Source of the DNA: Caballeronia sp. M1242
GTDB taxonomy: Bacteria > Pseudomonadota > Gammaproteobacteria > Burkholderiales > Burkholderiaceae
Length of the DNA stretch: 64,000 nt
Reading direction: 5' to 3'
Assembly (NCBI RefSeq): GCF_017220215.1
Contig: NZ_CP071130.1
Span: 682,001-746,000, forward strand
Below the pieces are notes generated by a model. That model worked only from the letters and a program-made list of their open reading frames with translations, searched no databases and was not told the origin of the DNA. Position 1 is the stretch's first letter. Every line of letters starts with the position of its first letter. The translations under genes and the position numbers were made by a program. Shown one piece after another: positions 1-46,323 of this stretch.

Positions 1-1250
1 GTCATCTTTTTGAAGCCTATCGCCGGGTCCGCTACCCACACGTCCGCCTTCGAAATGCCGTAGACGATAATGTAGTGATAGCCCTCCCAATGCGCGATGA
101 ACGGCAATTCGAACCCGCGCAACGATTCATAGGTGCACTGCACGCCGCGCGTGGTGAAGCCGAGCGCCTCGCCCGCGCGCGCGAGACTGTCGAGCGTCGC
201 GCCTTGGGTCGTCACGTTAGCCAGTTCGCGCAGTTTGCCGAGCGTCATGCCGATGCCGTAATGCCGGCAGATCATCGCAAGACACGCGGCCCCGCAATCC
301 ATCTCCTCGGCCTGCTGCACCCATGCAAAGCGTTTGATGACCCGTTCGCCGAGTTCAGGCTTGCTGTGCAAATCCAGCATCGCGGGAAGACTGCGACGTT
401 CGGCGAGCTTCTTTTGCCGCTGTAACTCCCGCTCGCTGAAGCGGATGCGTTCTTCAAGAACTTCGCGCAGCCTGACGTTGCGCTCGATGATGAAGTGCAC
501 TGTCTTCTCGGGGATGACGAGTAGGCGCGTATCGGCGTTCGCAATGGCCGAGGCCATCTGTTCCTGACGCATCACGCACGCCTTCTCGCCGAAAATTTCG
601 CCGGGGCCGAGCGTTGCCAGCACGTACTGATGCCCGCCTTCCTCACGCACGATGCGCACTTCCCCTTGACGCACGACATACAGGCGCCTGTCGTCGCGAG
701 CGTCCTGCCTGAGAATCTCCTTCCCTTCAGCGATACGCTTGACGCCGACGCTTCTCACGCATTCTTCGAGTTCCGCCTTGTCGAGCTTGCCGCGCAGATC
801 GAACAGCTTGGCGACGAAACCGCCTGCTGAAGCAATGGCGACATAGCTGGTCGCGAACGCAAGCGCCGCGGGATTCTTCGCGATGACGGGTTCGATCGCG
901 CGACGCGGAATGAACAAAAGTTCGGTCTTGCCCGATGACCGCACGGACGACTCATGCCGATAGTCGCGCAGCATCGCGATATCGGCGAATGTCTCGCGCT
1001 CCTTCTTCAGGCCCATGCTGATCTCTTTGCCATGCTCCTCGGTGAATATGCGCACGGAGCCTGCTCTCACGACATAGAGACCATCAGCCACGTCGCCGGC
1101 ATTGCACACGGTTTCGCCGAAGCCGTAGCGGCGCGACTCCGTGTGTTGAGCCAACTGCTCGATTTCATCGCGCGAAAGCGGTGACAATATCTCCACCGTC
1201 GTGAGGAAACTGGCGAGCGAGTCGAGGTTTGATGGTGCGTCCATGTCCAT
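1..1250 (-). CDS. C39 peptidase ABC exporter with two N-terminal cNMP-binding domains (5' part; cut by window edge)
   Basis: About 416 codons are visible; the gene continues beyond the left edge. The protein opens with two cyclic-nucleotide-binding-like beta-roll domains (about residues 12-125 and 140-255; FGETVCNAGD and GPGEIFGEKA are typical stretches). A C39 double-glycine peptidase domain follows, with a recognisable triad: Cys319 in DCGAACL, His392 in GYHYIIV and Asp408 in VADP. In this family a transmembrane domain and ATPase follow, but they lie outside the window. The expected role is cleavage of leaders after Gly-Gly and export of the core peptide with an HlyD adaptor and a TolC protein, all encoded just upstream. 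The start (MDMDAPS) lies 9 nt after the parvulin stop, so the genes are co-transcribed; ATG at 1244 is an alternative. The doubled sensor domain suggests ligand-gated export (inference). Confidence 0.9.
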   Translation of the reverse strand, partial: MDMDAPSNLDSLASFLTTVEILSPLSRDEIEQLAQHTESRRYGFGETVCNAGDVADGLYVVRAGSVRIFTEEHGKEISMGLKKERETFADIAMLRDYRHESSVRSSGKTELLFIPRRAIEPVIAKNPAALAFATSYVAIASAGGFVAKLFDLRGKLDKAELEECVRSVGVKRIAEGKEILRQDARDDRRLYVVRQGEVRIVREEGGHQYVLATLGPGEIFGEKACVMRQEQMASAIANADTRLLVIPEKTVHFIIERNVRLREVLEERIRFSERELQRQKKLAERRSLPAMLDLHSKPELGERVIKRFAWVQQAEEMDCGAACLAMICRHYGIGMTLGKLRELANVTTQGATLDSLARAGEALGFTTRGVQCTYESLRGFELPFIAHWEGYHYIIVYGISKADVWVADPAIGFKKM

Positions 1251-1259
1251 GTGCAATGT

Positions 1260-2012
1260 TTAGCGCGCCTGAATCACATGTTCCTGCGCTCTTGCGAAGA
1301 GCCATTCTTCTCGCAATAGCCGACGGATTTCCGCTGTCGTGTCTTCGTCCAGCTGTGCCGGAAACTTGGACGTCACCGCAAAGATCTCGTATGAGGCGCC
1401 GTCTGCGGAGACGAACGGACCCAGCAGGTCGCCCGGCTCGGCATTGAACACCTTGGCCTCGATATCCGCCCGCAACTGTCCGCGCATCACGCGGCCGATG
1501 AGTCCGCCTTCTTCGCGCGTATCAGCGAGGGAATGTTCGCGCGCCATGTCCGCGAAGCTGTCGGGATCGTCGTTGAGATAAGACATCATCTCTTTCGCGC
1601 TTCCTTCGGAATCGAGAACGATATGACGCACCTCGATGCCGTCGAATCGCGGCGAATTGAGTTGGAAATACTCTTCGATGGCGCGTTGCGTGCCTACCTG
1701 CTCCAGCATCTTCTCCTGGTACAGCGTATCGGTGATATAGGCCTCGAATTCGTCGAGGCTCACATTGAGCGCGTCGAGATAGTTGTTCATGTCCGCTGCG
1801 CGGTGCAGCCCGCGAATGCGCCGGAACTGATCGGCGCGGGTCTGTATCTCGTCCGCCGTGAGCGTGACGCCGGCCTTCTTTGCCGCGCGCACCGTGAGCT
1901 TGTCGCGAACCAGTTGCTCGACGAGTCCGTCGAACTGTCCATTGAGTTTCAGGAGCCTGAGAAATTCGTCGACATCGACCACTTCATCGTCGATTCGCAC
2001 AATCGCCGTCAT
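1260..2012 (-). CDS. Parvulin-type peptidyl-prolyl isomerase without signal peptide
   Basis: A 250-residue protein with a SurA/PpiC-like N-terminal helical half and a parvulin rotamase domain at about residues 120-215. The core motifs VRHIVLDSEG and EEGGLIGRV match the family. There is no signal peptide or membrane anchor: it begins MTAIVRIDDEVV. It is therefore predicted to be cytoplasmic, unlike SurA, PpiD or PrsA. It sits 25 nt after the HlyD stop and 9 nt before the exporter start, inside the export operon. A reasonable inference is a chaperone that holds the precursor peptides in an export-competent form. Parvulins accompany some cNMP/C39 exporters in other phyla (general knowledge, not tested here). 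Catalytic activity is not certain from sequence alone. Confidence 0.88.
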   Translation of the reverse strand: MTAIVRIDDEVVDVDEFLRLLKLNGQFDGLVEQLVRDKLTVRAAKKAGVTLTADEIQTRADQFRRIRGLHRAADMNNYLDALNVSLDEFEAYITDTLYQEKMLEQVGTQRAIEEYFQLNSPRFDGIEVRHIVLDSEGSAKEMMSYLNDDPDSFADMAREHSLADTREEGGLIGRVMRGQLRADIEAKVFNAEPGDLLGPFVSADGASYEIFAVTSKFPAQLDEDTTAEIRRLLREEWLFARAQEHVIQAR

Positions 2013-2037: not shown

Positions 2038-3426
2038 CTAGCCTGCTACGCTTCGGAAGGGATCGAGCCCGAGGTCGATCAGTCGCCGCTCGCGCACCAC
2101 GATTTCTGCGGAAGCCGTCATGCCATAGCGAAGCGGATATCGCGTACCGGCAATCTGGTAGTAGTCGCGGTCCAGCGTCACTCGTCCTTCATAGACCGGC
2201 TGCTTGGCAATTGCGCCCGGCTTCGTCGCTGGCGAGATGAAGGCGAGCGTGCCGTCGATCACGCCATATCGTTGATAAGGAAACGCATTGAATTTGAGTT
2301 TCACGCGCTGTCCTTCGCGCAGGAACGCGCGATCATGCTCGGCGATCTCTATCTTCAGCACGGGCCGCGCATTTGCCGGCGCAATACCACCGAGCGGCGT
2401 GTTCGCCTGAATCTTGTCGCCCGGCTGAGTCGACGTTACGTCCGTGACCACGCCCGACACAGGGGCCAGAATCAGCAGAAAGTTGTCTTTGTCGATGCTC
2501 TCGAAGCGGATGCGCGCAGCGGCGTCCGCGACGAGACGCGCGGTCTGCAATTGCAACCGCAGCTTGTCTTCCGTGCTCGTCACCTCGCGCATGGCCGACT
2601 CGTATTGCAGCCTGAGGCTCGTTGCTTCCTGACCGCTCGTTTCGAGTTGCGCCTTCGCTTGCTTGAATTCATGGCTCAAGCGAAAGTCGAGTTCAGCGAG
2701 CTTCGCCTGTTCGACGCGATAAGCGCCATCCGCTTCGAGATAGACGTTGCGCTTCGCTTCCACTTGCGATTCCGACACGCCGCCGCCGCCCGGCAAAGCG
2801 AAGAGTCGCGCGAAGCGGTCGAGTTCGCTCTTCGCGGCGTCGCGGGCGCGGCGCGCATTCTCCAGCACGCTGCGCTGCTCCTGGAGTTGCGCCTTCTGCC
2901 CTTCGGCGAGCTTGCTCGTGCCTTCGCTCACTCGCTGCTGATGCTGATGTTCCTCCACTTCCATCTGGTCCTTGAGCGCGGCGATTCTGCGTTCCATCAG
3001 CAACTTCTTCTCGGGAAACTGCTTCCATTCGCGCTCGGCGTCGTCGAGCTTGAGTTGCGCTTCCAGTGCGTTCGTCGCGGCTTCGATTGCGCCACGTGCG
3101 TTCAAGCGCGCCACGACGTCGTCCTTGCGCACCGGTTGCCCTTCCGCGATATAGAGGTCGGCCAGTTCTCCGTCGATAGGCGCGTAGAAGCGCCGCACCT
3201 CGGATTCCGGCGCAAGCGTGCCTTGCGCGGTAACGAGGACGTCCGCGTGACCGATGAAGGACCACGCGAGCGCCGCCACGACGAGCGCGACCATGGCGAG
3301 CACCACGGCTTGCGTGAGCTTCAGCGGCTCAGCGGTCAGAATCGCGACGCCTTCCGCGCCGTGATCGCCGAGCGCCTCGGAGAATGGCCTAAGGGCCGCG
3401 TTGCGCTTCACCGCTCGTCCCTCCAA
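2038..3426 (-). CDS. HlyD-family periplasmic adaptor (membrane fusion protein)
   Basis: 462 residues. One membrane segment lies near residues 40-60 (VVLAMVALVVAALAWSFIG). A lipoyl-like half follows (FYAPIDGELADLYIAEGQPV), then a long heptad-rich coiled coil of about 170 residues, the second lipoyl half (LAPVSGVVTDV) and a beta-barrel region. This is the usual plan of type I secretion adaptors that join an inner-membrane ABC exporter to a TolC channel. The start overlaps the end of the FHA gene by 38 nt, indicating translational coupling. A GTG 15 nt downstream is a less likely start. With the NodT/TolC lipoprotein and the C39 exporter in the same transcription unit, the tripartite pump is complete. 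Confidence 0.93.
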   Translation of the reverse strand: MEGRAVKRNAALRPFSEALGDHGAEGVAILTAEPLKLTQAVVLAMVALVVAALAWSFIGHADVLVTAQGTLAPESEVRRFYAPIDGELADLYIAEGQPVRKDDVVARLNARGAIEAATNALEAQLKLDDAEREWKQFPEKKLLMERRIAALKDQMEVEEHQHQQRVSEGTSKLAEGQKAQLQEQRSVLENARRARDAAKSELDRFARLFALPGGGGVSESQVEAKRNVYLEADGAYRVEQAKLAELDFRLSHEFKQAKAQLETSGQEATSLRLQYESAMREVTSTEDKLRLQLQTARLVADAAARIRFESIDKDNFLLILAPVSGVVTDVTSTQPGDKIQANTPLGGIAPANARPVLKIEIAEHDRAFLREGQRVKLKFNAFPYQRYGVIDGTLAFISPATKPGAIAKQPVYEGRVTLDRDYYQIAGTRYPLRYGMTASAEIVVRERRLIDLGLDPFRSVAG

Positions 3427-5902
3427 TCAGGTTCAGTTTCGCTTGCAGCAGCGACGGATCCAGCACCATGCGAAGGTCTTGTAGAGAGCGCCGTTGCAGA
3501 GCCGCTTCGTCATCGATCTCTTTGCTCAGCGCATTCCATTTGCCTTGATCCGCCGCGCCGTTTTGCGACGCTTGCCTGAGCATGCGCATGCCGCGAACGG
3601 AAGCATCCCGCGCATCCGACAAGCGCTTGGCTTGCGTTCGAAAGCCATCCGACACATCCGACTCCAGCCGTTGCGACCCGCCTATTCCACCGTTCGTCCG
3701 GTACTGCTCCCAAAGCGTCTGCGCATGAGTCATCAACGCTTGTCCTCGCGCGGCTGCTTTACCGTTGAGCGCTGCAATGTCGGGCGCGATAGCCTTAGCG
3801 AAATAGCCGTCGCTCTGCGGGTCGAGCGATTCATAGAACGAAAGCAGTGCGTCTTCATAGCGTCCGGAGCCGCGTGTCTTTCGCAATTCGTCGAACTGGG
3901 CGGCCACCGCCTTTTTGTGAGCCAGTTCACTCTGCAAGGTCGGCGTCCAATTGCCCTGCGGAATCTTCGTCAAGAGGTCAATTGCCTGGGCACTGCGCCC
4001 ATTGCGCCAGGCGTCGGATACAGCGGCGTATTGCGCCATCACAGGTGCGGGCGGCAACTGGTGCGCGCTCAATTCCGCCCACTTGTCCTTGAAAGGGGGC
4101 GTCGAGAATGTCGTCGTTCCGATCCAGTCGGCGAGCGGTGCGAGGCTCTTCGCGGTCATCGCGTGCCTGAGGCTCGCGTAGGCATTCGCATCGGCGCGCA
4201 GGCGTTCGAGACCGCCCAGACGCGGATACCGGTCTGCATAGTCCTTCAACGCGGCATCGATCGCATCGAGGTCGTCCGTGGCGAGGCTCTTCACGACACT
4301 CGCATTCAATCGATCGATGGCGGCGAGATAGACCGAATCATCGCTTTGCAGCTTGCGCAGATGGCTGAGCGCGAGCGCGTAAGGATCGCGAAACTCGGGC
4401 ATGTAGCCCGCGATGCGGTCCAGATCGCGCTGATGGCTTCCTGCATCCGCTTCCCGATGCTTCAGGATGTCCGCGATGCGCGGTTCGTCTGCGTACATTC
4501 GAACGGGCGCGTCAGGGCCGCCACGGCTCATGACGAAACGTTCGAGCTTGCCGATCCAGCGCAATTCATCGAGCATGGAACGGACTTCCGCGTTGTGCTC
4601 GCTCAACGCGTCCATCTGCGCGATGATGCTGTCCGCCTGCGCATAATCGCCTTTGCGCAACGCGACCAGCCAACGCGGCACGTCGGCCTTCAGAACGGCC
4701 TCTGTGTTCATCGACGCGAACGGCGCGTCGTGCGGATGCATGCGGAGATAATCGTTGCTCAACACCGCAGCTTGCGCATAGTCGCCGCTTGCCATGAGCG
4801 ACTTCGCGCGGCGCTCGAGTGATCCGGCATGAAAAAGCGCGAAGCCTCCGGCTGCAAACGCCAACAACACGCAGACAGTGACGACGCGTGCCCGCCGCGT
4901 GACGCGCTGATCCTCGCCTATGAACGCCCGTTCCAACTCGCGAATGAAGAGAGCCCACTTGCCGCGTTTGAGTTTGACCTCGCCGCGCTGTTCCTTTTGA
5001 GCCGAGTCGGCCTGAGCGTCGGCGTTGATCTCATCATCGCCCGGCGCGGCATGATCCACGCAGAAGATGTCAAGAAACGAATGCGCAGAGCCGACGAAAG
5101 TCGTCTTGTCACTGTCGCGCTCGTCTTGGGCATCAGGCTGCGCTTGTACCGCCATTTCAGTCAACGTGGATTCGCTTTCGTCGCCATGCAGACTCACTCG
5201 ATAGACGAAATGCGTGCCGCCGAACGCCAGAGTGTCGCCGTCCTTGAGTGCGATAGCCGAGTCGCCTATGCGTTGGCCGTTGACGAAAGTGCCGTTGGTG
5301 CTGCCGAGATCTTCGACGAACGGCGCCCCGCCCTTTTCGAACACATGCGCATGACGGCGCGACACGTAGTTGACCTGATGCGGGTAACGCGGGCGATAAC
5401 GCGCGAAGATATTGTCGGTCTTGCTGACGAGAAATGGAAACTGCGTGAGTTCGATCGGTTCGAGACCGAGTTCTTCGCGCACCGGCACGAGCGTGAGCGC
5501 GACCTGCTTCGCTGCATGAATTCGACGACGACGGGGCACGAATTGCACGCGATACGCGAGCCGGCTACCGAACGCAATCTCGTCACCGTTTCTGACGCGA
5601 GCGGGGACATCACGCACGGGCGTGCCATTCAATGTCGTGCCGTTCTTGCTCCCCAAGTCCGCGACATAGACAGAGCCGTGCTCGATGAAGATGCGCGCAT
5701 GACGGCGCGACAGTTGCGCGACGGCCTCGGGCGGGCTCTCGTCGAACGGCGCTTCGCCGCGGCCGATTGCGAAGAGATCGTCCTCGATGCGAATCTCGCT
5801 CAACGCATGCGCCGGCGTGCCGCGCGACGCCGGCTGAAGGACGACATCGAATGCTTCGTCCACGCGCGGTTGCGGTTCGGCTATCGGTTCGCCTGGAGCC
5901 AT
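3389..5902 (-). CDS. Double-FHA, single-pass membrane protein of the peptide export locus
   Basis: 837 residues. Two forkhead-associated domains are clear: FHA1 at about residues 40-115 (LSRRHARIF, GSKNGTTLNG) and FHA2 at about 150-230 (VSRRHAHVF, GSTNGTFVNG). Both keep the Arg, Ser-Arg-Arg-His and Asn-Gly residues used for phosphothreonine binding. An acidic linker leads to one membrane helix near residues 338-360. The remaining 475 residues are helical, TPR-like and predicted to be periplasmic. No kinase or phosphatase gene lies in the window, so the phospho-ligand is unknown. The position between TolC and HlyD genes suggests a scaffold or regulator of the exporter, reading a cytoplasmic phospho-signal (inference). 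The C-terminal part has no family I recognise. Confidence 0.88.
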   Translation of the reverse strand: MAPGEPIAEPQPRVDEAFDVVLQPASRGTPAHALSEIRIEDDLFAIGRGEAPFDESPPEAVAQLSRRHARIFIEHGSVYVADLGSKNGTTLNGTPVRDVPARVRNGDEIAFGSRLAYRVQFVPRRRRIHAAKQVALTLVPVREELGLEPIELTQFPFLVSKTDNIFARYRPRYPHQVNYVSRRHAHVFEKGGAPFVEDLGSTNGTFVNGQRIGDSAIALKDGDTLAFGGTHFVYRVSLHGDESESTLTEMAVQAQPDAQDERDSDKTTFVGSAHSFLDIFCVDHAAPGDDEINADAQADSAQKEQRGEVKLKRGKWALFIRELERAFIGEDQRVTRRARVVTVCVLLAFAAGGFALFHAGSLERRAKSLMASGDYAQAAVLSNDYLRMHPHDAPFASMNTEAVLKADVPRWLVALRKGDYAQADSIIAQMDALSEHNAEVRSMLDELRWIGKLERFVMSRGGPDAPVRMYADEPRIADILKHREADAGSHQRDLDRIAGYMPEFRDPYALALSHLRKLQSDDSVYLAAIDRLNASVVKSLATDDLDAIDAALKDYADRYPRLGGLERLRADANAYASLRHAMTAKSLAPLADWIGTTTFSTPPFKDKWAELSAHQLPPAPVMAQYAAVSDAWRNGRSAQAIDLLTKIPQGNWTPTLQSELAHKKAVAAQFDELRKTRGSGRYEDALLSFYESLDPQSDGYFAKAIAPDIAALNGKAAARGQALMTHAQTLWEQYRTNGGIGGSQRLESDVSDGFRTQAKRLSDARDASVRGMRMLRQASQNGAADQGKWNALSKEIDDEAALQRRSLQDLRMVLDPSLLQAKLNLIGGTSGEAQRGP

Positions 5903-6050: not shown

Positions 6051-7484
6051 TCACTCATTCTTTCCAATGGCGGCGCTCTGTACGTCGACCGCCGGCCATC
6101 CACCGCCGAGCGCCTTGTAGAGCGTGACCGTGTCCGACAAGATCTGCTGATGATTCGCGAGCAACGCGAGCTGCGCCGCGAGCAGCGTGCGTTCGGTCTC
6201 GAACACTTCGAGTTGTGAAATCACACCTTCTTTCAGTTGCGCATCGATCTGCGCGGCAACGATCGTCAGATGCGCGACTTCCTGCTGCAATTCTTCTCGC
6301 TGCTTCGTATGCGAATCAAGATTGACGAGCGCATTCTCCACTTCCTCGAACGCATTCATCACCGTGCTTCGATACTGCTGTTCCGCGACCGTGCTTTGCG
6401 CTTCGGTGGTCTTTACGTGCGCGCGCACGCTCGGGTCGAGAATCGGAATATTGATGCTGGGTAAGAAGCTGAACGTGAAGGACTTCAATAAGTCCGTCAA
6501 CGCAAAGCTCGCGGTGCCGCCACGCCCTGTCAGGCTAATCGTGGGTAACTGCGCGAGTTTCGCTTGTCCGACCAGATCGTAAGACTCGAGCACGCGATAC
6601 TCAGCGGCAATCAGATCGGGCCGCCGTGCAAGCAACTGCGACGGCAGTCCGGAAGGCACGGGCGGAACCTGCACGCGCTTCTGCAATTGGCCGTCGGGCA
6701 CTTTGAATTCGCCAGCAGGCACACCGGTCAACGTAGCCAGCGCATTGTCCGCAAGGTCACGAGCGCGGCGCAGTTCGAGCAGATCACGCGTAAGACGATT
6801 CAGTTCGGCGCGTTGATTCAGCACCTGAGTATGCGGCACAAGACCGTTCTTCTCCATGCCCTCGAATATCGTCAGTATTTTCTGGTTCGTCGCAATAGTC
6901 AGCATATGCTGCTGAATCTGGTCATCGAACTGGAGGATCTGAAAGTACGTCGTCGATACATTCGCGACGAGTTCGAGATAGCCGGCACGCCAGTCCGCTT
7001 CGCTCGCGCGATACTCGGCTTTTTGCGCCTGCACGCCCTTTTCCACGGCGCCCCAGATGTCGATGTCCCAGTTCACCTGCGTGCCGAGGTTGTATTGCTT
7101 CGTGAACGGCTGGCCCGTGGTCTTTTCGAAACTGGCGCCCGCGCCCACATCCATCGAAGGCAGCGCGCCCGCGCGCGCCTCGCCGATTTGCGCACCCGCT
7201 GCCTGAATTCGCGCTGCTAGCACCTTGATATCGAAGTTTCCGTTGATGGCCTTGTCGATCAGTCCGTCGAGATACGGATCCTGAAACTGCTTCCACCAAT
7301 CGGGCCGAATGGTCTCTGCGGGGGCGGCCTTGGGGACGCTTATCGTAGTGAACGCCGTCTTCTCCGGCGTATCGGGCCGCTTATAGACCGGCACGTTCAC
7401 ATCGATGCAGCCGGCGAGCAGCACGGCGGCAAAGAGAATCGCGCATGCGGTCATGAGGCGCGACGAGGGGATCAAAGCTCGCAC
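6051..7484 (-). CDS. NodT-family TolC-like outer membrane lipoprotein
   Basis: 477 residues with a lipoprotein signal ending LLAGC (lipid-anchored Cys26). A TolC-type repeat fold follows, with the usual family stretches such as YLELVANVSTTYFQI, VPSGLPSQLLARRPD and FEEVENAL. Proteins of this family trimerise into an outer membrane channel for efflux or type I secretion. Here it lies between the double-glycine peptide genes and the FHA/HlyD/C39 genes, so it most likely serves as the exit duct of that exporter rather than an RND pump; no RND gene is present. There is a 206-nt gap to the peptide gene upstream and 148 nt to the FHA gene downstream, so internal promoters are possible. Confidence 0.93.
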   Translation of the reverse strand: MRALIPSSRLMTACAILFAAVLLAGCIDVNVPVYKRPDTPEKTAFTTISVPKAAPAETIRPDWWKQFQDPYLDGLIDKAINGNFDIKVLAARIQAAGAQIGEARAGALPSMDVGAGASFEKTTGQPFTKQYNLGTQVNWDIDIWGAVEKGVQAQKAEYRASEADWRAGYLELVANVSTTYFQILQFDDQIQQHMLTIATNQKILTIFEGMEKNGLVPHTQVLNQRAELNRLTRDLLELRRARDLADNALATLTGVPAGEFKVPDGQLQKRVQVPPVPSGLPSQLLARRPDLIAAEYRVLESYDLVGQAKLAQLPTISLTGRGGTASFALTDLLKSFTFSFLPSINIPILDPSVRAHVKTTEAQSTVAEQQYRSTVMNAFEEVENALVNLDSHTKQREELQQEVAHLTIVAAQIDAQLKEGVISQLEVFETERTLLAAQLALLANHQQILSDTVTLYKALGGGWPAVDVQSAAIGKNE

Positions 7485-7690: not shown

Positions 7691-7969
7691 TCACACCGCA
7701 TACGGCCCATAGACGTTGATGTGGCTCGTGTTGTCCGCTTTCTGATGCGGCGCCACTTTCGCCGTGGTGTCATACGTGAATGCGTTGTTCACGCCGTTTG
7801 CGCTGAGCGTGTTCTGCGCCTGGTTAGTCAGTTGCTGCGTAGTGGCGCTCAGATCGAAGCTCGACTTGTAGCTCGGGAAATAGAAGGCGGTGCCGCCGCG
7901 CACCGCGGACATTTCATGACGGCCCAATTCGGCGTGATGGACGAGATCGTGGATAGTCAGCGTAGACAT
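7691..7969 (-). CDS. Double-glycine leader peptide precursor A
   Basis: A 92-residue precursor. The first 26 residues form a leader ending MSAVRGG, with hydrophobic residues spaced as in C39 substrates (TLTI, DLV, EL, M, V before GG). Cleavage after Gly26 would free a 66-residue core that begins TAFYFPSY and is rich in Asn, Gln, Thr and Ser, with no cysteine. The leader has the same length as that of precursor B and shares TLTI, Asp8, EL, Arg17 and MSAVRGG; the cores share T(A/S)FYFP, QNT, NGV and a NTS-x-x-NV ending. A C39 peptidase exporter is encoded in the same locus, which makes this a likely native substrate. No immunity protein or modification enzyme is adjacent, so function (bacteriocin, signal or structural peptide) is unknown. 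Confidence 0.82.
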   Translation of the reverse strand: MSTLTIHDLVHHAELGRHEMSAVRGGTAFYFPSYKSSFDLSATTQQLTNQAQNTLSANGVNNAFTYDTTAKVAPHQKADNTSHINVYGPYAV

Positions 7970-8008
7970 GATGTCGGTTCCTGGCTTGAGAGTGATGAAT
8001 GGTGGCGA

Positions 8009-8293
8009 TCAGCGGAGCTCGAAGCCCGATCCGACGTTGACGGTGCTCGTGTTGCTGGCCTGCTGCTTCGGCGCGATGTGGGCCGCGATATTGCCGCCGA
8101 ACGCCACGTTCACGCCGTTTTGGCTTTGCGTGTTCTGCGTCTGGCCGATGAACTGCTGCGTGTCGAACGAGAGCTCGACCTTCGAGACGTCATAGCCGGG
8201 AAAGTAGAACGAGGTGCCGCCGCGTACAGCCGACATCGCGCGGCGGTCGAGTTCTTCGGTGAGGGGAATGTCGAGGATCGTCAGCGTCTTCAT
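8009..8293 (-). CDS. Double-glycine leader peptide precursor B
   Basis: A 94-residue precursor starting at ATG 8293 behind a good ribosome binding site (AAGGAG, 8 nt). The frame is open further upstream, but only this start gives the double-glycine leader. The leader is 26 residues and ends MSAVRGG. The predicted core is 68 residues, starts TSFYFPGY, and is rich in Gln, Asn, Ser and Gly (TQNTQSQNG) with no cysteine. It is a paralogue of precursor A, 39 nt downstream, and the two probably share a transcript. The presence of two related cores suggests either a two-component peptide or diversification after duplication. The upstream 218 nt hold no gene and probably the promoter. Confidence 0.82.
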   Translation of the reverse strand: MKTLTILDIPLTEELDRRAMSAVRGGTSFYFPGYDVSKVELSFDTQQFIGQTQNTQSQNGVNVAFGGNIAAHIAPKQQASNTSTVNVGSGFELR

Positions 8294-8465
8294 GGTGGTT
8301 CTCCTTGGGTGCGCATTGCGCGTCGGGTGGGTTCGAGCAATCTGTTTGCTCGGGCCACTACAATGCACGGGGTATGCCATCTTTGCGCTGTTTCCCGCAA
8401 TGCTTTGCAGTACAAGGCTTTCCACTCCAACGGTCCAGTGCCGGTTTCCGTTCGCGATCGGTTCA

Positions 8466-8499
8466 AGACAAACACTTCGGAGTCCGACTGTTTGTCTTT
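8466..8499 (-). other. Hairpin between DUF4399 gene and peptide B gene
   Basis: A 10-nt perfect inverted repeat (AAGACAAACA / TGTTTGTCTT) encloses 14 nt, starting 13 nt after the stop of the DUF4399 gene on the minus strand. No T-run follows, so it is not a standard intrinsic terminator. It could weaken read-through into the peptide genes or stabilise the 3' end of the upstream message. Confidence 0.35.
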
Positions 8500-8511
8500 C
8501 ACCGACACTGG

Positions 8512-8970
8512 TCACCTGATATAGACCGTGATCTTCTTCGAATAGACGGGCGGATTGTGCGGAATATGCCGGTCGTCGCCCATCAAGAGTTGAAGCGTAT
8601 GCTTACCCGGCGGCAATTCGAGCATGGTCTCCGTTTCGCCTGCGCCGTAATGCAGATGATTACGGTCGGACGGAATCTCCTGATCCAATGGCGGCAAATC
8701 CGTATCGATCAATAGATGGTGATGTCCGGTGTTCGGAAACTTCACGCCGCGCGGAGCGACGCCCATGAACCGCAGCCCGAACCACACGCGGAAGGGTTTT
8801 CCCGCCGGAAGCGTCTGCCCGTCGTTGGGATAGCCGATATACGCGTGCGCGTTGGCGGGCGCGGGCGTCGGTCCGCCCGACGCGTGGCTCGCAGGGAATG
8901 GCGCGGCCAACGCCGCGGCGAGCAGAATCGAACGTGCGCACGAATGTGCGCCGGCAGTGCGTCGTTTCAT
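8512..8970 (-). CDS. DUF4399 periplasmic protein, copy 1
   Basis: 152 residues from ATG 8970 (MKRRTAG), which gives a signal peptide cleaved near ASHASGG. The body is one DUF4399 domain: an IGYPNDGQTL strand, then the invariant-looking TGHHHLLIDTDLPPLDQEIP block and the end PPVYSKKITVYIR. The His-rich segment could bind metal, but no activity is established for the family as far as I know. A close paralogue is directly upstream, and the double-glycine peptide genes follow in the same direction. The arrangement suggests a shared transcription unit and possibly a role at the cell surface with the exported peptides (inference). Confidence 0.85.
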   Translation of the reverse strand: MKRRTAGAHSCARSILLAAALAAPFPASHASGGPTPAPANAHAYIGYPNDGQTLPAGKPFRVWFGLRFMGVAPRGVKFPNTGHHHLLIDTDLPPLDQEIPSDRNHLHYGAGETETMLELPPGKHTLQLLMGDDRHIPHNPPVYSKKITVYIR

Positions 8971-9029
8971 GTCGTGTACCTTCAGGATGTGCGCCGGACG
9001 GTTTGCATCGGACGAAGCGACGGCCCGGC

Positions 9030-9467
9030 TCATTTCATCGTGATCGTGATCTTCTTCGAATAAACGGGCGGGTCATGCGGTACATGGTTGTAATCGCCCA
9101 TGAGCAGTTGCAGCGTGTGCTTTCCGGGCTGCAACTCAATGCGCGCATCCGTTTCGCCGGCGCCGTAGTGCAGATGATTGCGATCCGACGGAATCTCCTG
9201 ATCCAGCGGCGGAAGGTCCGTATCGATCAGCAGATGGTGGTGGCCCACGTTAGGCATATCGATGCCCTTCGGACACACGCCCATATTGCGCAGGCCCATG
9301 CGCACCCATAGCTTGCCGCCTGAAAGGACGGCGCCGTCGGGCGGCCAGATGATGTAAGCCTCTGCGTTCGCGGGTGCCGGGCTGCGGGTACGCCCGGCTG
9401 AAAACGACGCGTCCGCGGCCAGCGCCGCTATCGAAGCGAGCGCGCCGAGCACAGTTCTTCTCAGCAT
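9030..9467 (-). CDS. DUF4399 periplasmic protein, copy 2
   Basis: 145 residues with an N-terminal signal sequence (MLRRTVLGALASIAALAADA) and one DUF4399 domain. The stretch from GHHHLLIDTDLPPLDQEIP through the NHLHYGAGET motif is nearly identical to the downstream copy, also at DNA level, while the N-termini differ. This fits a tandem duplication with purifying selection or gene conversion on the core. It is the first gene of the minus-strand locus. Its start is 217 nt from the divergent caspase/FGE-like gene, and this gap should contain the divergent promoters. Confidence 0.85.
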   Translation of the reverse strand: MLRRTVLGALASIAALAADASFSAGRTRSPAPANAEAYIIWPPDGAVLSGGKLWVRMGLRNMGVCPKGIDMPNVGHHHLLIDTDLPPLDQEIPSDRNHLHYGAGETDARIELQPGKHTLQLLMGDYNHVPHDPPVYSKKITITMK

Positions 9468-9684
9468 GTTTCGGATGCCTCTTCAAAGAAAGGCCGTTCA
9501 CAGGCCAACGATCAAGCTCTGTGTTCAGATTAGGACGTAACGATTTGAAAAGATACATGCGTGCGAGGGGTCGCAGACGCTGCATGCGGATACCTACGTT
9601 TAGGGGATCAAAACGTGGCGGACAGCGTGCTATCGTTGTTTGTGCGGCACACGTGCGTCTCCCTCAACGCCATACGGACAGGGT

Positions 9685-11532
9685 ATGAATATGTGGCGGA
9701 TATTCTTCGTTGCGACTGTGTTCGTCGCCATGAACGCAGCCTTCGCGCAATCCGGAAAGTCGCCCGCTCCAGTACTCATCGATCACGACGGCTCAGCGCA
9801 TAGTGTCGCGCTCGTCATCGGCAACGACCGTTACGGCGAAGAGCCGCTGAGCAGCGCGGCCACGGACGCGAGAGACATGAGCGCCGCACTCTCCGCGATG
9901 GGATTCGACGTGACGCGCCGCACGAATCTCAGTGCCGATGCAATGCGGCAAGCCGTTCAGTCATTCATCGATCATCTTGGTCCGCGCGACACCGCGTTGG
10001 TGTATTTCGCCGGGCACGGCGTTGAGGCGCGCGGACAGGCGCTGCTCTTGCCGATCGATGCAAGCAACATCGAGAAAGGCATCGCAGCGCAGGATCTCGC
10101 GGCGCGCATGGCGCGTGCGAGGCCGCTTGCTACGAACATCGTCGTGCTCGACATGTGTCTCGGCTATTCATCGCCTCATGCTTCGGCCAGACCTGTTCAA
10201 CTTCCGCCGCGAACGCTGATCGCTTTCGCAACGCAGCTCAACGCAGGCGCAGCCGAAGACGGACGCAACGGTCGCTACACCGCGGCGCTTCTACGCGCCT
10301 TCGCGAAAGACAAGCAGATGACGTCCGCTTCATTCGATACTGCCGCGTCCGACATTGCCAATGCTTCCCGTGGCGCACAACGGCCGTGGGTGGCATCGAC
10401 ATTGACCGGGCCTGTCACGCTCGGACGCGCAACGGTGGCTCTGCCGGCGATGGCCGAATTTGCCGGCATCGATGGCGGACCGATCCGCATGCGCGGCATT
10501 CTGCCGAAAGACAGCAGCGAGCAATACGAACTGGCGTTCTGGGAATCGATCAAGGACAGCACGTATCCGAGCGATTACGAGGCGTACTTGAAGTCGTATC
10601 CGAATGGGCGTTTCGCGGCACTTGCGAAGGCGCGCATCGAGCGGCTCAAAGCGACCGCGAGCGCTAAGCCTTCTGTTGCGGCTCCGGCATCGGCTCAAGC
10701 ATCGGCTCCAACATCGGCTCAAGCATCGGCTCCGGCCAAGCCGGCCAGCCCCGTCGCGAGCGCCAAACCGATGGCACCGACGAACACCACGGCCAAGCCC
10801 ACGGGCAACGAGATCAAGGACTGCCCGCAGTGTCCGTTGCTCATTCCCATCGTGCCGGGCGCTTTCACGATGGGCAGCAACAACGATGATCCCGGCGAGA
10901 AGCCGTCGCATCGCGTGACGCTCGGGCGGCCGTTCGCCATCGGCAAATACGAAGTGACCGTCGAGCAGTGGAATGCGTGCGCCGATGCGGGCGCCTGCAC
11001 CCGCATCGCGCCGGACAGCAACGCAAGCGCCCCGCCGCCACCCAATTCGCCGATGCGCAACGTCAGTTGGGACGATGCGCAGGTCTACGTGAAGTGGTTG
11101 AGCAAGGTAGGCGGCAAGCCGTATCGTCTGCCGAGCGAAGCCGAATGGGAGTTCGCCGCGCGCGGCGGCACGCAAAGCACGTTCTGGTGGGGCGATCAGA
11201 TGAAAAAAGGCACGGCCGACTGCAAGGACTGCGGCGAGCCGTATCACGCGGATGCGCCGGTGCCCGTGGGTTCGTTCGCGCCGAACGGGTATGGCCTCTA
11301 CGACATGAACGGCAGCGTGTGGGAATGGGTCGCCGACTGCTGGCATAGCTCATACAAGGGCGCGCCCGTCGATGGCCGCGTGTGGGACGAGCCTTCCTGT
11401 TCGGTGCGCGTGATTCGCGGCGGCTCCTGGCGCGAAGGCGGCGACTATATGCAATCCGCCACGCGCTTCAAGTACAGCGCGAGCGTGCGTCAATCGCAGA
11501 ACGGCTTTCGCGTGGCGCGCGACACGCAGTGA
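9685..11532 (+). CDS. Secreted caspase-like / FGE-sulfatase-like fusion protein
   Basis: 615 residues from ATG 9685 (MNMWRIFF), with a Sec signal cleaved after AFA. A caspase-like (peptidase C14) domain follows at about residues 35-265, with the dyad His111 in YFAGHG and Cys158 in VLDMC. A linker at about 330-380 is rich in Ala, Pro and Ser (repeats of ASAQASAP). The C-terminal domain (about 387-615) has the formylglycine-generating enzyme/SUMF1 fold: FTMGS, YEVTVEQW, YRLPSEAEWEFAARGG, NVWEW-like GSVWEWVADCW and RVIRGGSW. The paired catalytic cysteines of true FGE are missing: the aligned segment reads YMQSATRFKYSAS. So the domain is probably a binding or structural module, not a sulfatase activator. 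It is divergent from the peptide-export locus and may process or bind its products (inference). Confidence 0.88.
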   Translation: MNMWRIFFVATVFVAMNAAFAQSGKSPAPVLIDHDGSAHSVALVIGNDRYGEEPLSSAATDARDMSAALSAMGFDVTRRTNLSADAMRQAVQSFIDHLGPRDTALVYFAGHGVEARGQALLLPIDASNIEKGIAAQDLAARMARARPLATNIVVLDMCLGYSSPHASARPVQLPPRTLIAFATQLNAGAAEDGRNGRYTAALLRAFAKDKQMTSASFDTAASDIANASRGAQRPWVASTLTGPVTLGRATVALPAMAEFAGIDGGPIRMRGILPKDSSEQYELAFWESIKDSTYPSDYEAYLKSYPNGRFAALAKARIERLKATASAKPSVAAPASAQASAPTSAQASAPAKPASPVASAKPMAPTNTTAKPTGNEIKDCPQCPLLIPIVPGAFTMGSNNDDPGEKPSHRVTLGRPFAIGKYEVTVEQWNACADAGACTRIAPDSNASAPPPPNSPMRNVSWDDAQVYVKWLSKVGGKPYRLPSEAEWEFAARGGTQSTFWWGDQMKKGTADCKDCGEPYHADAPVPVGSFAPNGYGLYDMNGSVWEWVADCWHSSYKGAPVDGRVWDEPSCSVRVIRGGSWREGGDYMQSATRFKYSASVRQSQNGFRVARDTQ

Positions 11533-39750: not shown

Positions 39751-41340
39751 TCATTTGAGCCCGAGCCGTCGCGCGAGCCGGTTAAGGTTCGCCCGGTCGA
39801 TGCCCAACTCGCGCGCCGTCGATGCCCAGTTCTGCTGATTGCGCGCGAGCGCATCGAGAACCAGCGTGCGCTCGTATGCCGTGACCGCTTCGCGCAAGCC
39901 GACAGCAGCGGGCGCATTTGACGCCGGCGATGCGGGCGGCGCGACGCTCGCCGTATCGCCGATGCCGAAGTCGGCGGCGGTGAGCGTCAGAATGCGCGGC
40001 CGTTCGCGATGCCCCGCGAGCGCCTTCAACGCGCTTCGCCCGATGAGGTGCTCCAGTTCGCGCACGTTGCCCGGCCAACGATAGGCAAGCAGCGCGGCCT
40101 GCGCATCGGCGGAGAGCCGCAGGCCCGACAGGCCGAGCCGCGACCGGTTCTCCTCCAGAAAGTAGCCTGCGAGCAGCAAGATGTCGCGACCACGCTCGCG
40201 CAGCGGCGGCACGACGAGCGGATACACCGACAGGCGGTGATACAGGTCCGCGCGGAAACGTCCGCCGCGCACTTCTTCGGCCAAGTCGCGGTTGGTTGCC
40301 GCAATCAGCCTCACATCCACGCGATGCTCGCTGTCCGAGCCGATGCGCTGCAACTGGCCGTTCTGCAACACGCGCAGCAGCTTGGCCTGCACGGCAAGCG
40401 GCAGTTCGCCGACTTCATCGAGGAAGAGCGTGCCGCCGTCCGCGAGTTCGAACTTGCCGCGCCGGTCCGACGATGCGCCCGAGAACGCGCCGCGCACATG
40501 TCCGAAGAGTTCGCTTTCGACGAGCGTGTCCGGCAGCGCCGCGCAGTTGAGGCTCACGAGCGGCTTGTCCGCCCGGGGCGAACGCGCGTGAATCTCGGAG
40601 GCGACCAGTTCCTTGCCGACGCCCGTTTCGCCGGTAATCAGCACGGTCAGATCGCTCGACGCCACGATTCCGATCTCTTCCAGCAAATGCTTCTGCGGCG
40701 CGCTGCTGCCGATCATCTCGCGGCGGCGCGGGCCACTCGCCTGCCGATACACCTCGGCCCGCTGGCGCTCCGCCTCGCTCGTGCGCGCCAGCCGGTCGAT
40801 GCGTTCAGCGACGCTCACGGTCGCCGCCGTGAGACTCAGAAATGCCTGGAGCGAAGCCATGTCGATGCCGTCGAAACGCGCGGGATCGAGCGCATCGAGC
40901 GTCAGCACGCCCCACGGACGTCCGCCGATGAACAGCGGGCTGCCGAGGCAATCGTGTACTTCGAGATGCGCGCCGGCGTGCTTGACGAGGCCGTCGTAGG
41001 GATCGGGGAGACTGGAATGCGCGGGAAAACGCGTCGGCTCGGGGCGCGCAAGGATGCGCGCAAACCGCGGATGGTCTCGCACGAGGAAGCGCCTGCCGAG
41101 CGTATCGCTCGATAGGCCGTCGATGGCGAGCGGCACCAGCGTTTCGCCGTCTAGCCGCAACAGCGCAGCGGCGTCGCTCGGGAAAAGCGCGCGTAGCGTG
41201 CTCAGCAATCGGCGATAGCGCTCGGTATCTGGAATGTCGTGCGATAGGTCTTCGATCAGCGGCACAAGGGCGTCTAAGACGACGCGCGAAGTCATCGCGA
41301 CTACGTCGGCAGTCTTTTGGACTAGGGTCGAAGTGACCAT
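39751..41340 (-). CDS. norR: NO-responsive sigma-54-dependent activator NorR
   Basis: 529 residues from ATG 41340 (MVTSTLVQ). The order is GAF domain (about 20-175, where NorR binds NO at a non-heme iron), AAA+ domain (about 205-430) with GETGVGKEL (Walker A), the sigma-54 contact GAFSGA and GGTLFLDEVGEL (Walker B), and a C-terminal Fis-type HTH (TARELGIDRANLNRLARRLG). Divergent transcription from hmp, with starts 119 nt apart, is the classic NorR target arrangement in betaproteobacteria. The ba3 oxidase operon downstream may also be part of the NO/low-oxygen response (inference). Confidence 0.93.
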   Translation of the reverse strand: MVTSTLVQKTADVVAMTSRVVLDALVPLIEDLSHDIPDTERYRRLLSTLRALFPSDAAALLRLDGETLVPLAIDGLSSDTLGRRFLVRDHPRFARILARPEPTRFPAHSSLPDPYDGLVKHAGAHLEVHDCLGSPLFIGGRPWGVLTLDALDPARFDGIDMASLQAFLSLTAATVSVAERIDRLARTSEAERQRAEVYRQASGPRRREMIGSSAPQKHLLEEIGIVASSDLTVLITGETGVGKELVASEIHARSPRADKPLVSLNCAALPDTLVESELFGHVRGAFSGASSDRRGKFELADGGTLFLDEVGELPLAVQAKLLRVLQNGQLQRIGSDSEHRVDVRLIAATNRDLAEEVRGGRFRADLYHRLSVYPLVVPPLRERGRDILLLAGYFLEENRSRLGLSGLRLSADAQAALLAYRWPGNVRELEHLIGRSALKALAGHRERPRILTLTAADFGIGDTASVAPPASPASNAPAAVGLREAVTAYERTLVLDALARNQQNWASTARELGIDRANLNRLARRLGLK

Positions 41341-41459
41341 GCTTCCCCACAAGTCGTTGAATCTACGAGGATTCTACACTGGCATAGAAGCTGTATGAGG
41401 TGACGGCACAAATCGCTCGCGGGGCTTTCCGGCTCCGCCCTTGTCACTAGGACTACACC

Positions 41460-42644
41460 ATGCTGTCAGCAGAACACCGTTCCATCATCAAAGCCACCGT
41501 GCCGCTTCTGGAAAGCGGCGGCGAAGCGCTCACGCGCCACTTCTACGCCACCATGCTGAACGAACACCCCGAAGTGCGCCCGATGTTTAATCAAGCGCAT
41601 CAGGCAAGCGGCGCCCAGCAACGCGCGCTCGCCAACGGCGTGTTGATGTACGCGCGGCATATCGACGAGCTCGACAAGCTCGGCGGGCTCGTCGGGCAGA
41701 TCATCAACAAGCACGTCGCGCTCAATATTCAGCCGGAGCATTATCCGATCGTCGGAAGTTGCCTGCTCCGCTCGATCCGCGAAGTGCTCGGCGCAGACAT
41801 CGCCACCGACGCCGTCATCGAGGCGTGGGCCGCTGCTTATGGCCAGCTAGCGGATCTGCTCATCGGCCTGGAGGAAGGGATCTACAGCGAGCGCGAACAC
41901 GCGCCGGGCGGATGGCGCGGCACGCGGCGCTTCGTCGTCGCGCGCAAGGTCGCTGAAAGTGACGAGATCACGTCGTTCTATCTCGTGCCCGAGGACGGCG
42001 GCAGTCTCCTCGATTTTCATCCGGGACAGTACATCGGGCTGCGTGTGTTCGTCGACGGCGAGGAACTGCGTCGCAACTACTCGCTGTCGGCGGCGCCCAA
42101 CGGCCGCGAATATCGCATCAGCGTCAAGCGCGAGAAGGAAGGCAAGGTGTCGAGCTTCCTGCACGACCGCATTCACGAACGCGACACGATCGACCTGTAT
42201 CCGCCCGCCGGTGACTTCAGGCTCGAACACGGCGACAAGCCGCTCGTTCTGATCAGCGGCGGCGTGGGCATCACGCCGACGCTCGCGATGCTCGACGCCG
42301 CGCTCGCCACGACGAAGCGCCCGATCCATTTCATCCACGCGGCGCGGCACGGCGGCGCGCACGCGTTCCGCGAGACGATCGACGAACTGGCCGCGCGTTA
42401 TCCGCAACTCAAACGCTTCTATTGCTATGAGAATCGGCGCGACGGCGACAGCGAGCCGCACGGCGTCGGCTTCGTGAACGAAACGCTGCTCGACCAGTGG
42501 CTGCCTGCGAACCGCGACGTCGATGCTTACTTCCTCGGGCCGATGTCGTTCATGAAGGCGGTGAAGAAGCATCTCAAGGCGCTCGGCGTGCCGGAAGCGC
42601 AGAGCCGCTATGAGTTCTTCGGGCCGGCTGCTGCGCTTGATTGA
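41460..42644 (+). CDS. hmp: Flavohemoprotein, nitric oxide dioxygenase
   Basis: 394 residues. The globin domain (1-140) has the distal Tyr in LTRHFYATML and the proximal His in NKHVALNI. The FAD domain has RRNYSLSAAP and the NAD domain GGVGITPTLAML. The protein oxidises NO to nitrate with O2 and NAD(P)H in the cytoplasm. It is divergent from norR, which should activate it with sigma-54. I could not find a well-spaced -24/-12 promoter by eye. Confidence 0.96.
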   Translation: MLSAEHRSIIKATVPLLESGGEALTRHFYATMLNEHPEVRPMFNQAHQASGAQQRALANGVLMYARHIDELDKLGGLVGQIINKHVALNIQPEHYPIVGSCLLRSIREVLGADIATDAVIEAWAAAYGQLADLLIGLEEGIYSEREHAPGGWRGTRRFVVARKVAESDEITSFYLVPEDGGSLLDFHPGQYIGLRVFVDGEELRRNYSLSAAPNGREYRISVKREKEGKVSSFLHDRIHERDTIDLYPPAGDFRLEHGDKPLVLISGGVGITPTLAMLDAALATTKRPIHFIHAARHGGAHAFRETIDELAARYPQLKRFYCYENRRDGDSEPHGVGFVNETLLDQWLPANRDVDAYFLGPMSFMKAVKKHLKALGVPEAQSRYEFFGPAAALD

Positions 42645-42733
42645 GCGTTCATTTGCGTCGAGAAGACGGACGCGCGCTGGACATGGCAATCCGCTGCACG
42701 CACTCTCTTTATAGATGAAAGCGTATCGTAATG

Positions 42734-42749
42734 CAAAGAGCGCTCTTTG
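42734..42749. repeat. 16-bp perfect palindrome between hmp and oprD-like gene
   Basis: CAAAGAGCGCTCTTTG lies in the 135-nt gap between two convergent genes. It could form a short hairpin serving both mRNA 3' ends, but no T-run follows. Confidence 0.4.
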
Positions 42750-42779
42750 TAGGGTAAACGCTTGCGACGGATGGCTCAG

Positions 42780-44177
42780 TTAGAACACATTAAACGGCAC
42801 ATTCACCATCAGCCGATATATGTCGCTCGTCCCGTCGGAATAATACTTACTGCCTTGGTGATGCATGTAATAGAACTTGACCGACGTGTTCTTGAACTTG
42901 CCCTCCGGCACGGTGTAACTCGGAATAATGCCGAATTCGTGATGCGTGCCGTGCACGGGTTCCCCGTTCACGATATAGCTGCTCGCGTTGACCGTGCCGC
43001 TATTGGCCATGGCACTGCCGTCTGCGCCCCACCCATATGCGACCCACGTCGTCACCTTGAACCCGGGCATGCCGTAGTCCTTAAGATTCAGCGAATAAGA
43101 AAGACTGACTGACTTTTCGTGCGGCTGGTTGTAGTCGACATCCAGCGAGTTCGAAAGATAATCGCCGCCCGACTCGTGCATGTAGTCGAACATCTGATCG
43201 CCGAGAATCTGCTGGAAGGCGAACTGCAGCGTATGCGCGCCATGCGTGCCGGCGAGCGCGAGGCTATACGCGTTGTTATTGATCGGCCCCTGACGCTTGT
43301 CGCCGATTGCGCCCGTGTAGTAATAGTTGAGCGCGCCGGTCCAGCGGACGGATTTCGCGTCGCCGATGCTTTGAGTCGCCGAAAGATAGTACTGCTGCCA
43401 GACGTTATTCGCGATGCTGCCGTACAGCGTGACCGCCGTATCGTCGCCGCGCGTCCAGTCGCCGCCGAAGTACGTGAATTGTGAGACGTGCTTGCCGCCG
43501 TATTCGGTTGAAAGCCCGGTTACGGTCGTCATGCCGCGCGAGATCACGCCATCCACCGTGCCGGCTTTCAGCGTCAGGTTCTTGAACTCGTCGCTGGCGA
43601 GCGAGAAGCCGCGATACGTCGGGGGCAGCGCGCGATTGTCGTGCGGCACGAGGAACGGGTTGTCGAAGAGTTGCTGGCCGTATTTGAGCACCGTGTTCGA
43701 CACGCGCGCCTTCACGTCCCACACGCCCGGATACGCCCACGCAAGCTGGTTCGCGCCGCCGCCGTCCGTGCCCACGTGTACGCGGGTGCCCGCGCCGTTG
43801 CCGCCGTTCAGCTTGAACGCGCCGAACATCGACACGTCGCCGCCGAGCCCGATGAGCCCGCGCGTGAAGCCGGATTCGAACACGGCCTGTGCGCCGAGCA
43901 CCCACGCGTCTTTGTCCTTTGCGCCCTTCGGTTCGAAATGTTCCGAGAAAGAGCGGCCGAGCAAATTCAAATGCGAGTCTTCAATGAAGCCCTTCGACTT
44001 CGCCTGATTGCTCACGGGCGCGTCGGCTTCGGTATTAGGCGGCGAACTCGGGACGGTTTCGGTATGGCGAGAAAGCGGCTCGGTATCGGCTTCCTGGCCA
44101 TATGCGGCCACGGTCGCGGCCATCACGCCGCTAAACAGCAAAATCGAAAGTGCGACTGAAAGTTTTTCTTTTTTCAC
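42780..44177 (-). CDS. OprD-family outer membrane porin
   Basis: 465 residues from GTG 44177, with GGAG 9 nt upstream; the signal peptide is VKKEKLSVALSILLFSGVMA. The barrel shows OprD features: FIEDSHLNLLGRSFSEHF, a plug-like GFTRGLIGLGGDVSMFGA, and a C-terminal Phe (VPFNVF). OprD porins admit amino acids and small peptides. It follows the oppABCDF genes in the same direction, so it likely forms the outer membrane entry for the same peptides. Confidence 0.88.
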   Translation of the reverse strand: MKKEKLSVALSILLFSGVMAATVAAYGQEADTEPLSRHTETVPSSPPNTEADAPVSNQAKSKGFIEDSHLNLLGRSFSEHFEPKGAKDKDAWVLGAQAVFESGFTRGLIGLGGDVSMFGAFKLNGGNGAGTRVHVGTDGGGANQLAWAYPGVWDVKARVSNTVLKYGQQLFDNPFLVPHDNRALPPTYRGFSLASDEFKNLTLKAGTVDGVISRGMTTVTGLSTEYGGKHVSQFTYFGGDWTRGDDTAVTLYGSIANNVWQQYYLSATQSIGDAKSVRWTGALNYYYTGAIGDKRQGPINNNAYSLALAGTHGAHTLQFAFQQILGDQMFDYMHESGGDYLSNSLDVDYNQPHEKSVSLSYSLNLKDYGMPGFKVTTWVAYGWGADGSAMANSGTVNASSYIVNGEPVHGTHHEFGIIPSYTVPEGKFKNTSVKFYYMHHQGSKYYSDGTSDIYRLMVNVPFNVF

Positions 44178-44339
44178 GAAAAGTATCTCCAACGACTGAC
44201 TCAACCTGCGGACTGCACAAACCAACTCTCAAAATCGACGGCTGCAACGAGCCGCGCCCGGCGACCGAAGCAGTCGGGACGAGCGACGCGTGCTTAGGGC
44301 TACTACGCGTGCATGTCGTGAGCTATGGAAACTTGCGCA

Positions 44340-46320: not shown

Positions 46321-46323
46321 GGC

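Follow-up and report, generated by a model that had tools for sequence, protein, structure and literature searches.

Among the closest described systems, a class II microcin set consists of a precursor, an immunity protein, a C39 ABC exporter, an adaptor and a channel, and its precursors are small, poor in Cys and carry a leader ending in GG or sometimes in GA (PMC9746304). The Cdz system of Caulobacter exports more than one small peptide together by the type I route; its cores consist to 75% of Gly and small hydrophobic residues, contain glycine zippers and are accompanied by the immunity protein CdzI (PMC5380434). Curli (CsgA/CsgB) and Fap have homologous, Q/N-rich major and minor subunits (PMC3521004, PMC5557850), and Fap includes a C39 peptidase, FapD (PMC5557850). 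HetC of Nostoc is a C39 ABC exporter with a cyclic-nucleotide-binding domain at its N-terminus; HetC function requires this domain, and in vitro the domain binds ppGpp (PMC10986499). The NHLP/Nif11 groups, finally, combine GG leaders with a related exporter, an HlyD protein and a parvulin-like maturation protein (PMC2887384; TIGR03793-TIGR03798, TIGR04500).

The locus that we describe here lies in a 64,000-nucleotide stretch of DNA from Caballeronia sp. M1242 (the window) and includes two adjacent genes, pepA and pepB (Table 1), whose products are strongly predicted to be substrates of a dedicated type I export system and to be cut after GG. Whereas double-glycine peptides and their type I export are known as such, the peptide superfamily is new and absent from Pfam and NCBIfam. 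An earlier note on this DNA had proposed the pair for a new family of Cys-free, Asn/Gln-rich cores; both open reading frames have indeed been found on the minus strand where it had placed them, the motifs QNT, NGV and NTS-x-x-NV that it had named occur in both cores, and a new family of this composition with a double-glycine leader is supported. The two genes are separated by 39 bases. A longer frame of pepB begins at an upstream GTG, and the start has been placed at the ATG at 8293, which opens the conserved part and is preceded by AAGGAG. Both leaders end in MSAVRGG, the cores begin with TAFYFPSY (pepA) and TSFYFPGY (pepB), and neither contains Cys.

Table 1. Features of the peptide export locus within the window.
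Feature	Position	Strand	Description
Exporter, N-terminal part	3..1259	-	two cyclic-nucleotide-binding domains and C39 peptidase
Parvulin-type peptidyl-prolyl isomerase	1260..2012	-	Pfam Rotamase 4e-11; without obvious signal peptide
HlyD-type membrane fusion protein	2038..3426	-	Pfam HlyD_3; TIGR01843 2e-44
Two-FHA-domain protein	3389..5902	-	837 aa; hydrophobic, probably membrane-spanning segment; Pfam FHA 5e-31
Outer-membrane efflux channel (NodT/OEP family)	6051..7484	-	Pfam OEP 8e-51; TIGR01845 above cutoff
pepA	7691..7969	-	double-glycine-leader precursor, 92 aa; leader MSTLTIHDLVHHAELGRHEMSAVRGG, 26 residues; core 66 aa
pepB	8009..8293	-	double-glycine-leader precursor, 94 aa; leader MKTLTILDIPLTEELDRRAMSAVRGG, 26 residues; core 68 aa
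Predicted sigma-54 (-24/-12) promoter	8364..8379	-	TGGCATACCCCGTGCA; 70 bp upstream of pepB; 9/12 consensus positions
DUF4399 protein a	8512..8970	-	Pfam DUF4399 1e-35; secretory-type N-terminus; adjoins pepB in relatives
DUF4399 protein b	9030..9467	-	Pfam DUF4399 4e-36; secretory-type N-terminus; position conserved
Caspase (peptidase C14) and FGE-sulfatase domain protein	9640..11532	+	Pfam FGE-sulfatase 1e-58, Peptidase_C14 2e-28

Both genes thus encode small proteins with a short N-terminal leader of the GG/GA-ending kind, in which MSAV and GG have been found invariant among 40 homologues. This leader is common to four families, P1 (pepA, pepB and pepC), P2 (pepD), P3 (pepE) and P4 (pepF), which have been assigned by simple patterns in scripts, the per-family counts being approximate. 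The pair that the earlier note had described belongs to a cassette in which four or more families have this leader and which has its own exporter and regulators. When the cores alone are compared by hhalign, P1-P2, P1-P4 and P2-P4 score 30.4, 27.1 and 26.1, in each case higher than any of 100 controls with shuffled columns, so that P1, P2 and P4 probably go back to one ancestral core containing Q-x3-Q-x-Q. The cores of these three families are near neutral and contain 20-24% Asn+Gln, and that of P4 opens with APWV[FY]GWI; the P3 core, which is basic and about 46 residues long, has not been found related to the other three by the same test. Several Caballeronia genomes encode, far from the exporter locus, yet another peptide type, the fifth, in which this leader precedes a Pro-rich core opening IAY(L/V/I)T (L052:9266-9505, minus strand; L053:9394-9633, plus; L054:4930-5172, minus; L056:3679-3915, plus); it is possibly exported by the same machine. 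Outside the family but within the class, one genome encodes a double-glycine peptide whose leader is followed by WVFGWINPY (L144:1402-1749, plus strand); it is likely a distant relative of pepF, which suggests a wider spread of the pepF-type peptide than of the locus. Multiple copies of the peptide cassette occur in Massilia (L124:3397-6409; L125:6878-10213), and in the former stretch copies of the same peptide genes, encoding identical precursors, lie about 1.9 kb apart.

Homologues of pepB have been retrieved from 28 of 61 relatives, and the family profile matches 159 of 398 family genomes and 8 of 25 genera. Core homologues number 100 or more in Caballeronia, Paraburkholderia, Trinickia, Burkholderia, Noviherbaspirillum and Massilia, the genera of the 74 loci that a scan of named genomes has yielded, where the closest orthologue of pepB, from Caballeronia sp. 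GAFFF1, is 97% identical. Outside these groups there are essentially no homologues in the genomes sampled at order, class and phylum level, such searches being samples of species that may miss diverged members. The family profile finds homologues across genera and not the unrelated low-complexity sequence that the earlier note had seen as a possible outcome. Neither Pfam nor NCBIfam has a model that fits pepA or pepB better than expected by chance, pepC-pepF are likewise without a Pfam match, and profile searches of the PDB have given chance-level matches only (haemoglobin, VgrG), so that no solved structure fits. In the plasmid collection, two Caballeronia megaplasmid/chromid records alone match, the peptides being unannotated there; no phage record matches, and a phage origin has been rejected on that ground. 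The leader motif MSAVRGG has not been found in the text of the searched literature, nor is the locus described in the literature on DUF4399 and matrix proteomes.

The start T(A/S)FYFP, which had been put forward as defining for the family, has turned out to be a local variant that opens 8 of 103 family cores, while an aromatic or Leu residue directly before Pro near the core start is found in 99/103. The family signature lies in the middle of the core (Q-x3-Q-x-Q-N ... N-G-x-N-x-A-F ... V-x-P-x-Q-x-x-x-N), where conservation is strong, with several Q, P and N positions invariant in 40 precursors and with Q21, A38 and N55 invariant among 66 diverse cores. The comparison of synonymous and non-synonymous change that the earlier note had proposed has given a median pairwise dN/dS of 0.40 for the core (333 pairs with dS 0.15-1.2, which are not independent of each other), and amino-acid changes are fewer in leaders than in cores by pairwise comparison. 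As judged from these codon comparisons, the pepA/B-type core is under purifying selection, and its conservation extends beyond the leader, the failure of which would have spoken against the family.

The full exporter is a protein of 1023 aa that runs past the window (L007:14186-17257); the part listed in Table 1 is followed by the ABC membrane domain and the ATPase domain. The protein matches Pfam C39 (3e-39) and ABC domains, and the catalytic Cys, His and Asp of its C39 domain are present by inspection. The parvulin matches TIGR04500 (putative peptide maturation system) at 5e-26, below the cutoff. The caspase-FGE gene, whose start may be the ATG near 9685, is divergent and belongs to the locus in relatives too. 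Beyond the exporter gene follow a sigma-54 activator, a PP2C phosphatase, pepF and an LRAT-domain protein; the last of these (L007:10848-11390) is divergent from pepF and has a sigma-54-like site (10/12) upstream. A Ser/Thr kinase gene together with pepC, pepD and pepE lies about 134 kb from the rest in this genome (L008:5513-8987 as against 7691-9467 of the window), and the two parts are contiguous in many relatives. Within Caballeronia, the order LRAT-pepF-PP2C / s54-ABC-parvulin-HlyD-FHA-channel-pepA/B-DUF4399x2 / caspase-FGE / kinase-pepC-pepD-pepE is kept, and Paraburkholderia, Trinickia and Massilia have the same gene set in partly rearranged form. Of 61 genomes, 28 contain the peptides, and precisely these 28 contain the FHA gene; the cores diverge faster than the exporter. 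It is the leader, the intact catalytic residues of the linked C39-ABC exporter and the strict co-occurrence on which the prediction of export is based. Further along the window, at 39.7-46.3 kb, another sigma-54 activator and further ABC genes have been considered as parts of the system and set aside as unrelated: an ordinary stretch (39754-46323) carries a NorR-type sigma-54 activator beside a flavohaemoglobin-like gene, followed by an OprD porin and the ATPases of an oligopeptide importer. Anti-phage defence has likewise been considered; PADLOC matches only generic kinase, phosphatase and caspase models, and no defence function is therefore claimed.

Upstream of the first peptide gene, a -24/-12 type site recurs in relatives, mostly at a distance of 61-75 bp. 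Sites with at least 10/12 consensus positions precede 69 of 91 first peptide genes, as compared with 50 of 3000 stretches taken at random from these loci, and the downstream peptide genes are without a site of this type. Taken together with the sigma-54 activator encoded in the locus, the conserved site makes sigma-54 control of the peptide genes likely. The gene content further suggests, through kinase, phosphatase and FHA proteins, a phospho-threonine control, and the nucleotide-binding domains of the exporter recall HetC, by analogy with which a nucleotide control may be considered. One might suppose that the peptides are chance reading frames or decaying genes without function, whose common leader stems from recent duplication, as the reading frames are short and some genomes of the genus are without the genes. 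Yet this supposition, the probability of which we regard as negligible, is already refuted by a core kept across genera at a dN/dS of 0.4, by the exact co-occurrence with the FHA gene and by the conserved promoter.

Compared with class II microcins, the locus has the same kind of small Cys-poor precursors with a GG leader, the C39-peptidase ABC exporter with Cys, His and Asp, the HlyD-type adaptor and the outer-membrane channel. It differs from them in that no immunity gene is recognisable, the other members of the set being so, in its polar cores without a membrane-active stretch, in its four peptide families per locus, and in the parvulin, FHA protein, kinase, phosphatase, caspase-FGE protein and probable sigma-54 control, none of which belongs to the microcin set. 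The exporter has a HetC-like layout outside the cyanobacteria; it contains two cyclic-nucleotide-binding domains, unlike HetC, and candidate substrates adjoin it in the same locus, whereas the substrate of HetC is not known (PMC10986499).

The cores might also be modified as in RiPPs, e.g., by two proteins encoded in the locus, the caspase-FGE protein or the LRAT-like one. The layout resembles that of RiPP precursors with their leader, the cores are rich in Ser, Thr and Asn, and the locus encodes a protein of the FGE fold, members of which can be oxidases. However, the leader of 26 residues is neither nitrile-hydratase- nor Nif11-like, with no NCBIfam match of pepA or pepB to such leaders up to E = 1, and exporter, HlyD protein and parvulin all score below the cutoffs of the NHLP/Nif11 models. 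Lanthionine synthetase, YcaO, radical SAM and ATP-grasp genes have not been seen in the conserved locus, which thus offers no modification enzyme of these kinds for its Cys-free cores, so that the earlier argument against lanthipeptides is supported and modified peptides in general appear very improbable.

A more serious competitor is antagonism, in which several class II microcin-like peptides would be exported by the type I route and perhaps be held at the surface for contact-dependent, Cdz-like killing. Leader, C39 ABC exporter, HlyD protein, channel and peptide size all fit, and the joint export of several different peptides, the local duplications of pepA/B and the divergence of the peptides, faster than that of the exporter, would suit antagonistic peptides as well; Cdz itself is type I-secreted and forms surface aggregates (PMC5380434), the surface retention being an analogy as far as our locus is concerned. 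But the immunity protein of class II microcins, defined as a protein of 51-216 aa near the peptide gene and usually membrane-bound, has no evident counterpart: a conserved separate small gene has not been recognised in the gaps next to pepA and pepB, although sequence alone identifies immunity proteins poorly. The DUF4399 genes are the only small neighbours and have the size of immunity candidates, but they encode secretory N-termini, are about 80-90% identical, far above the peptides, and show no co-divergence with them, which is unlike cognate immunity. Nor does any of 173 cores contain a hydrophobic segment (no 19-residue Kyte-Doolittle window above 1.6), glycine zippers (GxxxGxxxG) are absent from all 104 pepA/B-type cores, pepA and pepB included, and a core dN/dS of 0.4 gives no sign of overall diversifying selection. 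With Q/N/S/T-rich cores, no zippers and no recognised immunity gene, the locus stands apart from Cdz, and we consider bacteriocins unlikely, though to be taken seriously.

The cores look more like building blocks of a surface coat than like bacteriocins or signals. This assignment has been given the most weight because the locus encodes several polar cores that are homologous to each other, because neither a recognisable immunity gene nor a membrane-active segment has been found, and because no modification enzyme is present; we would give about even chances to the cores being extracellular surface or matrix subunits of a dedicated type I system. Surface attachment or self-assembly, which the earlier note had suggested from the composition, is plausible from composition and family structure and from the lack of immunity or membrane-active features. 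The Q/N-rich homologous major and minor subunits of curli and Fap, to which FapD adds a C39 peptidase, provide an analogy. In contrast to them, the QxGx2N repeat is absent here as a repeat, with one motif per peptide and no tandem repeats, the locus contains no Csg or Fap genes, and GG leader and ABC export take the place of the Sec route. The minimal curli repeat occurs in 1 of 104 pepA/B-type and 6 of 35 pepD-type cores, pepA-pepF do not match Pfam curlin up to E = 1, and both curli-type and glycine-zipper peptides have been rejected since their motifs are absent. Strand-type alternation, measured as hydrophobic moment, is no better than in shuffled sequence for pepA/B-type cores (z 0.12) and weak for pepD-type cores (z 1.7), and AlphaFold2 has given no confident fold for two core alignments (pLDDT 61.5 for the pepB core and 52.7 for a pepD-type core). 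The lack of a usable fold and of curli and glycine-zipper motifs speaks against the surface assignment.

The elaborate regulation, with kinase, phosphatase, FHA protein, sigma-54 activator and nucleotide-binding domains on the exporter, would also suit exported cores or core fragments that act as signals sensed by other cells, and HetC, likewise a nucleotide-binding C39 exporter, has been proposed to export a signal (PMC10986499). It is, however, the entire core of 60-75 aa that is conserved and not a short stretch, the locus is without a receptor-like histidine kinase or dedicated importer, and the co-export of several homologous cores would be unusual, all of which renders signalling peptides improbable.

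For surface or matrix subunits, the following sequence of events may be proposed. The sigma-54 promoter, which is backed by sequence conservation, would switch the peptide genes on, probably via the sigma-54 activator of the locus, and the kinase / PP2C / FHA phospho-threonine module may tune this step. The 26-residue leader would then bring the precursors, perhaps held unfolded by the parvulin, to the C39 domain of the exporter for cleavage after GG, which is strongly indicated. Through the ABC exporter, the HlyD protein and the outer-membrane channel the cores would leave the cell, perhaps gated by nucleotide on the two N-terminal domains of the exporter, as has been proposed for HetC. Least certain is the last step, in which the Q/N/S/T-rich cores and the homologous pepD and pepF cores would act as major and minor subunits outside, assisted in the periplasm by the DUF4399 proteins. 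That all this amounts to an undescribed beta-proteobacterial extracellular structure of homologous Q/N-rich peptides, served by one type I exporter and gated in expression and export by kinase-phosphatase-FHA proteins, sigma-54 and a nucleotide-sensing exporter, is a tentative proposal that we hold to be rather doubtful as a whole.

A peptide superfamily without a name has now been tied to an exporter, a promoter and likely regulators in many environmental and host-associated bacteria, and for a nucleotide-binding C39 exporter linked genes now point to candidate substrates, which is not the case for HetC (PMC10986499). In Gram-negative bacteria, the known double-glycine peptides have been studied mostly as bacteriocins; a use at the surface or in the matrix under phospho-threonine and nucleotide control would, if true, widen the purpose of type I peptide export.
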